A model generated the notes under the pieces. The model searched no databases. It was not told the DNA's origin and saw nothing but the letters and a program-made list of their open reading frames with translations. From the NCBI GenBank assembly GCA_009835005.1, contig WTFG01000003.1, forward strand, positions 1-64,000: 64,000 nt of DNA, written 5' to 3'. This stretch comes from Flavobacteriaceae bacterium Ap0902. Lineage in GTDB: Bacteria; Bacteroidota; Bacteroidia; Flavobacteriales; Weeksellaceae. A program made the translations under genes and the position numbers. Every line of letters starts with the position of its first letter. The first letter of the stretch is position 1. Shown here one piece after another: positions 37,643-50,526 of the stretch.

Positions 37643-38116
37643 ATGAAAATTCTAAATGCCATATTTAGATATACAATGATTCTGGGAAGCCTTGTGCTTT
37701 CCAGCCATTGTTTTTCTCAATTAAAAGAATATTCATTTCCTGAGATTGATTCATTACAACAAGTAGAACCAAGAAAGACAGTGGTTTTTATTCATACAAG
37801 CTGGTGTACTTATTGTAGCATGATGAATAAATCTGTTTTTGGCGACGAGAAAATCGCTGATATACTAAATGAAAAATATTATTATGTTCCTCTTGATGCC
37901 GAAGGCGAAAAAAATATAGATTTTGCTGGTAAAACATTCAAATTTATCCCAAACGGCATGAACACTGGAATTCACGAATTGGCTACTGCTTTGGGTACAA
38001 TAGATGGTAAATTATCCTACCCCACACTCGTTATATTAAATGAAAAATATGAAATCGTTTTTCAGTATGGTGGTTTGCTAGATAGAGAAAGCGTAAAAGA
38101 AATTTTACTGAATTAA
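37643..38116 (+). CDS. Thioredoxin-fold exported protein
   Basis: 157 residues: signal peptide ending in CFSQ, then a thioredoxin-like domain with redox motif HTSWCTYCSMM (CTYC), a cis-Pro segment LSYPTLVIL and YVPLDAEGEKNI. The motif and the leader suggest periplasmic thiol-disulfide exchange, similar to DUF255/thioredoxin_7 proteins. Co-directional with the receptor and 22 bases behind it, so it may keep the receptor's plug Cys pair reduced or act in the same metal-stress response; that link is inference. Confidence 0.85.
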   Translation: MKILNAIFRYTMILGSLVLSSHCFSQLKEYSFPEIDSLQQVEPRKTVVFIHTSWCTYCSMMNKSVFGDEKIADILNEKYYYVPLDAEGEKNIDFAGKTFKFIPNGMNTGIHELATALGTIDGKLSYPTLVILNEKYEIVFQYGGLLDRESVKEILLN

Positions 38117-38129
38117 TCCAAAATTTTTA

Positions 38130-38160
38130 TTGGGTATTTCAAAAGTTTTAATTACTTTTA
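38130..38160 (+). promoter_or_regulatory. Likely promoter of the asnB leader transcript
   Basis: TTG at 38130-38132 and TACTTTTA at 38153-38160, 20 bases apart, approximate the Bacteroidota -33/-7 pattern. This would place the transcript start about 20 bases before the leader-peptide ATG. Confidence 0.4.
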
Positions 38161-38187
38161 TCAAATAATAAACGAATAACAAACGAA

Positions 38188-38256
38188 ATGTTTATCAATT
38201 TTAATCTTAACAATGCTAATAATAATCTTCTATATCAGAGGACAAGATGGCTATGA
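38188..38256 (+). CDS. Asparagine-rich leader peptide of the asnB attenuator
   Basis: A 22-codon reading frame with ATG at 38188 and TGA at 38254. It begins MFINFNLNNANNN: seven of its first 13 codons are Asn (six AAT, one AAC), including runs of two and three, then a tail LLYQRTRWL. The position (160 bp upstream of asparagine synthetase), the enrichment in the amino acid the downstream enzyme makes, and the following overlapping hairpins are the classic layout of a ribosome-mediated attenuator. Control codons span 38197-38226. No Shine-Dalgarno sequence; the ATG is preceded by an A-rich stretch, usual for the phylum. The product is expected to be only a regulatory translation event. Confidence 0.85.
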   Translation: MFINFNLNNANNNLLYQRTRWL

Positions 38257-38298
38257 TTTAAATTGAAAATTAAAAAAATATTATGAACCTCTTGTCCT
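38239..38298 (+). promoter_or_regulatory. Antiterminator of the asnB attenuator
   Basis: AGGACAAGA at 38239-38247, lying inside leader codons 18-20, is complementary over nine bases to TCTTGTCCT at 38290-38298. The second segment overlaps the 5' arm of the terminator (38286-38296), so the two structures exclude each other. A ribosome stalled on the Asn codons leaves 38239-38247 free; a ribosome that reaches the stop at 38254 covers it. Confidence 0.8.
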
Positions 38299-38321
38299 TA
38301 TGGCAGGAGGTTTTTTTTTTT
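38286..38321 (+). terminator. Attenuator terminator upstream of asnB
   Basis: AACCTCTTGTC (38286-38296) pairs with GGCAGGAGGTT (38302-38312) over 11 bp with two G.T pairs and a five-base loop, followed by a run of 11 T (38311-38321). It sits 26 bases before the asnB ATG with no gene end to terminate, so it can only act on the leader transcript. Confidence 0.9.
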
Positions 38322-38347
38322 GGAATAAACTTTAAAAACTAAATATT

Positions 38348-50397: not shown

Positions 50398-50433
50398 AAA
50401 AAAACCTCGATAAATGGTAAGATTTATCGAGGT
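50398..50433 (-). terminator. Attenuator terminator upstream of trpG
   Basis: Minus strand: ACCTCGATAAAT pairs with ATTTATCGAGGT, a perfect 12-bp stem with six-base loop (arms 50433-50422 and 50415-50404), followed by seven T (50404-50398) that abut the trpG start codon. Confidence 0.92.
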
Positions 50434-50485
50434 CTCTTCTGAATTAAATTAACAACATAGTTAAGTAACAGACACCGATAAATCG
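50421..50485 (-). promoter_or_regulatory. Antiterminator of the trp attenuator
   Basis: On the minus strand, GATTTATCG inside the leader gene (50485-50477) is complementary over nine bases to CGATAAATC (50429-50421), which is part of the terminator 5' arm. Forming this pairing prevents the terminator. A ribosome stalled on the three Trp codons would leave the first segment free; one at the leader stop would cover it. Confidence 0.8.
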
Positions 50486-50526
50486 ACTCTGCTCCACCAC
50501 CAATTGTTGTTTAATCTTGTATTCAT
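50461..50526 (-). CDS. trpL: Tryptophan leader peptide
   Basis: A 21-codon frame on the minus strand with ATG at 50526-50524 and TAA at 50463-50461. It begins MNTRLNNNWWWSRV, containing three consecutive TGG Trp codons (50502-50494), and ends DLSVSVT. Directly upstream of trpG-trpB with a following antiterminator/terminator pair. The arrangement is the standard design of Trp-dependent ribosome-mediated attenuation. No Shine-Dalgarno sequence is visible, and the likely -7 element ends only four bases before the ATG, so initiation may be leaderless. Confidence 0.9.
   Translation of the reverse strand: MNTRLNNNWWWSRVDLSVSVT

Follow-up and report, generated by a model that had tools for sequence, protein, structure and literature searches.

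The window analysed here, a 64-kb stretch of DNA taken as a whole, carries asnB, encoding a glutamine-hydrolysing asparagine synthase B, which is preceded on the same strand by a thioredoxin-like gene ending at 38116. The intergenic region between them (38117-38347) holds a promoter-like site, a small Asn-rich reading frame, and a hairpin followed by a T-tract (Table 1). This single asnB was the sole asparagine synthetase found in the genome, in which asnS was present and asnA gave no match. Given this gene complement, tRNA-Asn charging is expected to depend on asparagine that is either made by AsnB or imported. An Rfam scan of the window returned three tRNAs, no other RNA family, and no match to the T-box covariance model.

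Table 1. Features of the asnB and trpG-trpB leader regions in the window
Feature	Position	Strand	Basis or remark
Bacteroidota-type promoter-like site: TTG (38130-38132), 20 bp spacer, TACTTTTA (38153-38160)	38130-38160	+	Resembles TTTG/TAnnTTTG
Leader peptide ORF, MFINFNLNNANNNLLYQRTRWL-stop	38188-38256	+	Sequence, shuffles, sister-genus leaders in the same position
Antiterminator segment 1 (core AGGACAAGA, 38239-38247)	38238-38250	+	Sequence, duplex test, folding
Intrinsic terminator hairpin; 5' arm includes segment 2 (38288-38299, core TCTTGTCCT, 38290-38298)	38285-38313	+	-16.4 kcal/mol
Terminator 11-T tract	38311-38321	+	Sequence
asnB, glutamine-hydrolysing asparagine synthase B, 556 aa	38348-40018	+	NCBIfam NF006949/TIGR01536; Pfam Asn_synthase
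Trp leader of the trpG-trpB attenuator, MNTRLNNNWWWSRVDLSVSVT-stop	50461-50526	-	Sequence; internal control
Segment CGATTTATCG (50485-50476) and terminator ACCTCGATAAATC..ATTTATCGAGGT-T7 (50433-50398) before trpG	50398-50485	-	

The leader frame comprises 22 codons, from its ATG at 38188 to a TGA at 38254-38256, and Asn, encoded by both AAT and AAC, occupies codons 4, 6, 8, 9, 11, 12, and 13 (38197-38226), that is, seven of the first 13. This was the highest Asn content among 666 small frames in the window (7/13 vs 5 for the runner-up), and the pattern of an Asn core followed by six Ts had a single occurrence in the 2.6 Mb genome. It could be argued that the frame is an accident of AT-rich DNA and that the hairpin is merely the terminator of the thioredoxin-like gene, since that gene lies on the same strand and the region is AT-rich. 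However, a comparable frame arose in only 1 of 20,000 dinucleotide shuffles of the intergenic region, the hairpin is situated 170 nt from the thioredoxin-like stop codon vs 26 nt (from the end of the T-tract) from the asnB ATG, and no TAnnTTTG motif was present from the leader to asnB. Chance is a poor explanation for the Asn leader together with the pairing described below, and we regard this alternative as very improbable, also in view of the relatives discussed later.

The core of segment 1 is the exact reverse complement of the core of segment 2, giving nine perfect pairs, and folding lengthened this antiterminator to 38238-38250 paired with 38288-38299 and added an inner hairpin (-16.7 kcal/mol). 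The predicted stability of the antiterminator is thus close to that of the terminator, which has one bulged U in its 5' arm, and the two structures are mutually exclusive because 38288-38298 is common to both. Searched within 36 nt past the last Asn codon, the duplex between segment 1 and the arm reached -17.9 kcal/mol vs a shuffle mean of -8.3 kcal/mol (p=0.002). When folding was constrained with assumed values for the ribosome footprint edges, RNA free from 38238 (ribosome at codon 13) adopted the antiterminator at -16.7 kcal/mol, whereas RNA free from 38268 (ribosome at the stop codon) adopted the terminator at -16.4 kcal/mol. Segment 1 begins 10-12 nt past the last Asn codon, which on the modeled footprint is just past the leading edge of a ribosome stalled there and is within the footprint of a ribosome sitting at the leader stop. 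The original prediction, which had proposed an Asn leader with seven Asn in its first 13 codons, a nine-base complementarity, and mutually exclusive pairings upstream of asnB, agreed with the sequence in every coordinate of the leader, segments, and terminator, and its pairings were confirmed by both sequence and folding.

Together, these parts very likely form a ribosome-mediated attenuator of asnB transcription, with charged tRNA-Asn as the signal sensed and, as expected of an attenuator, a target gene whose product makes the amino acid in question. Transcription would start approximately 20-25 nt ahead of the leader, with a ribosome trailing the RNA polymerase. With ample asparagine, the ribosome would reach the stop codon and mask segment 1, the terminator would form, and transcription would stop in the T-tract. 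Under scarcity of Asn-tRNA, the ribosome would stall at codons 4-13 and leave segment 1 unmasked, allowing it to pair with 38288-38299 before the 3' arm of the terminator is made, so that asnB would be transcribed. Judging from this layout, asnB is very probably switched on only under asparagine shortage. Leader translation, transcription start and promoter use, and the response to asparagine are steps that we infer, whereas the analysis itself showed the parts, their statistics and geometry, their predicted exclusivity, and the evolutionary conservation of the arrangement. In the fold of free RNA, segment 1 showed weak alternative pairing only, and no clear 1:2 protector hairpin was seen; an untranslated leader is therefore expected to read through rather than terminate.

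The promoter-like site probably serves the leader, with TACTTTTA being an imperfect match to TAnnTTTG. In the sister genus and in f9, f36, f48, and f55 (handles of the form f9 denote families), an exact TAnnTTTG was located 24-34 nt 5' of the leader ATG, and most units displayed this motif or a near variant 24-39 nt ahead of the leader. Of four f64 units tested, two were preceded by the variants TATACTTG, and neither TAnnTTTG nor a variant was found before the leaders of L218 and L231.

Two further readings of the same parts were weighed. The sensor could be another RNA element, such as a T-box, a riboswitch, or a protein-binding antiterminator, with the small frame being incidental; T-boxes control asn genes in Firmicutes, and some protein-dependent antiterminators resemble this arrangement. 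Nevertheless, no tool gave a result in favor of such an element, the only Rfam matches in the window being tRNAs, while an in-frame run of Asn codons is common across lineages and the segment and arm sequences covary, which leaves this option extremely unlikely. Alternatively, the leader could act chiefly through translation, Rho-dependent termination, or reinitiation rather than the intrinsic terminator, since leader reading frames close to genes can increase translation by reinitiation (PMC4833913) and one asnB (L280) follows an Asn-rich frame without a T-tract terminator. In the window, however, the terminator and its T-tract are strong, the antiterminator is in competition with precisely the 5' arm of this hairpin, and the 91 nt separating the leader stop from asnB are too many for close-range reinitiation, so hardly any probability attaches to this mode of action. 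Attenuation at the intrinsic terminator by a ribosome reading Asn codons thus remains the preferred reading. At L280 itself (G455), a GC-rich inverted repeat that lacks a T-tract comes after the Asn-rich frame MQFRHNGNFGGNHNVNFNIVNSNNNS, near the asnB start, possibly a translational version of the device.

Comparison with relatives provided evidence for the predicted attenuation. Both other genomes of the same genus lacked asnB, and the closest genus carrying it was the sister genus g29, with AsnB 72-77% identical. All four g29 genomes contained an Asn leader (MIFLNNNNNINNNPYAKA, MKKNLLNNNNFNNNSYP, MKKNLLNNNNLNNNSYHR) whose Asn codons are immediately followed by an antiterminator segment, as well as a terminator, with 155-162 nt from leader start to asnB vs 160 nt in the window. 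The segments had changed and yet still paired, GGTAGGAAAAGG:CCTTATCCTGCC in L087-L089 (one mismatch) and GGGCAAG:CTTGTCC in L082 vs AGGACAAGA:TCTTGTCCT in the window, and the g29 terminator stem was altered on both sides, from AACCTC/GAGGTT to AGCTCC/GGAGCT. The upstream gene differed by group, being thioredoxin-like, pyruvate phosphate dikinase-like, a divergent asnS, or gltD-like (the last three named by eye). The attenuator unit therefore belongs to asnB, and its persistence as the upstream gene changes, even next to a divergent one, argues against the hairpin being the terminator of the thioredoxin-like gene. In L317 (G204), an asnS-like gene, named by eye, lies divergently upstream of the asnB attenuator.

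In the wider sample, the device was sparsely distributed. Among 190 distinct asnB upstream regions, a terminator lay within 120 nt of the gene in 10, of which nine had an Asn-rich or NNN leader; this count includes L122 (MIVIKVNNNFKT) and L275 (MKTQTHNNNRFFALASR), single distant cases with the device that missed the Asn threshold set in advance and entered the tally only once inspected. When that threshold was applied strictly, an Asn leader was present in 7 of the 10 terminator-bearing regions (Fisher p=5.6e-8). Neither a terminator nor an Asn leader occurred in 175 of the 190 regions, approximately 180 lacked the device, and the 80 named genomes of the first sample had no Asn leader before asnB. 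In genus g41, three of four genomes (L310, L311, L314) had the device, with fewer Asn in L314. Asn-rich frames without a terminator before asnB (L118, L288, L052, L286) were not counted. The conservation check suggested with the original prediction had a favorable outcome: relatives keep the Asn codons and the pairing despite sequence drift, supporting the Asn-sensing reading, but the distribution is patchy and the device is missing at most asnB genes.

A different arrangement was observed in Flavobacterium (L044, L049, L054, L056-L058, L074, L075), where asnB had no attenuator and a gene-proximal promoter, beside which conserved direct repeats like TTnAATTnTAAC were located 40-110 nt upstream of the gene. 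The absence of a leader together with the direct repeats beside the promoter suggests that a transcription factor controls asnB at these loci.

The device was also found before asnA, encoding AsnA, an ammonia-dependent asparagine synthetase unrelated to AsnB. The strict pattern of an Asn core followed by T6 was run on 395 genomes of the class, blind to the downstream gene; a relaxed version performed no better than a reversed control and was dropped. Thirty matches were opened, and most of them were due to chance, while those in two g166 genomes (f64) presented an Asn leader and then a terminator before asnA (TIGR00669). A search of 61 g166 genomes recovered 20 asnA genes, every one of them preceded by an Asn leader, a segment, and a terminator, giving 21/21 asnA-bearing genomes when L218 and L222 of the first search were included. 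In L249 (f36) and L254 (f48), apparent tandem leader-terminator units lay approximately 100-450 nt upstream of asnA, with leaders MKSLKNNFFNYNSNNNIRAERLFY and MLQFRINNNNTNKSPP in the former and MKTNFNNNFYFNPKN and MNFYFNNNFNYATPPGGD in the latter. Pairing taken alone was weak in the second unit of L254 (L254b; p=0.10) and, before asnB, in L310 (p=0.18). The candidate before asnA in L250, which was Asn-poor and failed the pairing test (p=0.37), was rejected. Most other asnA genes of the class sample had no such device.

Across 19 leader units (17 Asn, 2 Trp), matched segment/arm duplexes averaged -15.3 kcal/mol vs -9.8 kcal/mol for cross-lineage combinations, with a combined Fisher p of ~3e-18 for pairing, a value to be read in light of within-lineage sequences being related and not independent. 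Some f64 asnA leaders place the stop codon 20-41 nt past segment 1, where simple masking at the stop would therefore fail without an extra element, and details of the mechanism may differ in several f64 leaders. Among the g166 asnA leaders (L228-L247, L218), stop codon position varied widely. In the same loci, an extra hairpin immediately 3' of segment 1 appeared to covary (TTGTTC..GAACAA vs TTGCTC..GAGCAA). The distribution of the attenuator, viewed through an uneven sampling of taxa, may be the product of more than one origin, of transfer together with the gene, or of recurrent loss. Overall, Asn-sensing attenuation is probably a recurrent, partly convergent device of Bacteroidota, placed before AsnB and AsnA genes in about seven families and sometimes in tandem.

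The window contains a second putative attenuator, directly before trpG-trpB, whose products match Pfam GATase and PALP; it served as an internal control. Its segment lies 8 nt past the last Trp codon and is predicted to form a 9-10 bp antiterminator with the terminator 5' arm, which includes CGATAAATC; the duplex reached -19.0 kcal/mol vs a shuffle mean of -9.5 kcal/mol (p=0.002). It shares the two-segment architecture and spacing of the asnB unit but differs in its Trp codons and its target, and given this likeness, the organism appears to use one design for both amino acids. A Trp leader (MKKLNNLNNNRWWLFSVS) with a terminator was also observed before a trpE-like gene in L220 (G690), from another family of the class.

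Ribosome-mediated transcription attenuation is a textbook mechanism. The trp, his, leu, thr, phe, and ilv attenuators of enterobacteria and others share with the asnB unit a leader enriched in codons of the amino acid produced, a biosynthetic gene downstream, and a mutually exclusive antiterminator and intrinsic terminator. The asnB unit differs in its Asn codons, its asparagine synthetase targets, the lack of an evident 1:2 protector or pause hairpin, and a simple layout of two segments, the first of them located where the leader ends. The T-box of Firmicutes responds to the same signal, uncharged tRNA-Asn, at asn targets, but there the tRNA binds the RNA directly and no leader frame is involved. 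A 2010 paper stated that leader-peptide systems had been demonstrated in Proteobacteria and Actinobacteria alone (PMC2965389), whereas a 2021 study of Flavobacterium psychrophilum reported strong clues that amino-acid operons there are attenuated through leader peptides, and named structured 5' elements ahead of pheA and hisG (PMC9723704). That organism belongs to the same phylum, and the main text of the study mentions neither Asn nor asnB/asnA. No published Asn-sensing attenuator emerged from our search of open full texts, which was directed at Asn leaders, attenuation, and asn genes. The novelty originally proposed thus holds for the amino acid and the target genes, and not for the phylum, since a flavobacterium had previously been inferred to attenuate amino-acid operons through leader peptides (PMC9723704). 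What appears to be new, within a known kind of regulation, is the amino acid sensed, the targets, the placement before two unrelated synthetases, and the apparent tandem use.

Asparagine lies outside the amino acids of the classic attenuators, and the present finding would extend the textbook mechanism by one more sensed amino acid and one more regulon. The tandem units and the two unrelated enzymes make this a good case of the repeated evolution of a regulator. Ribosome-mediated attenuation requires a ribosome close behind the RNA polymerase. If true, its recurrence would mean that transcription and translation are closely coupled in bacteria largely without Shine-Dalgarno sequences, and the Asn and Trp attenuators of like design in one window would allow coupling in Bacteroidota to be tested directly in a genetically tractable setting.
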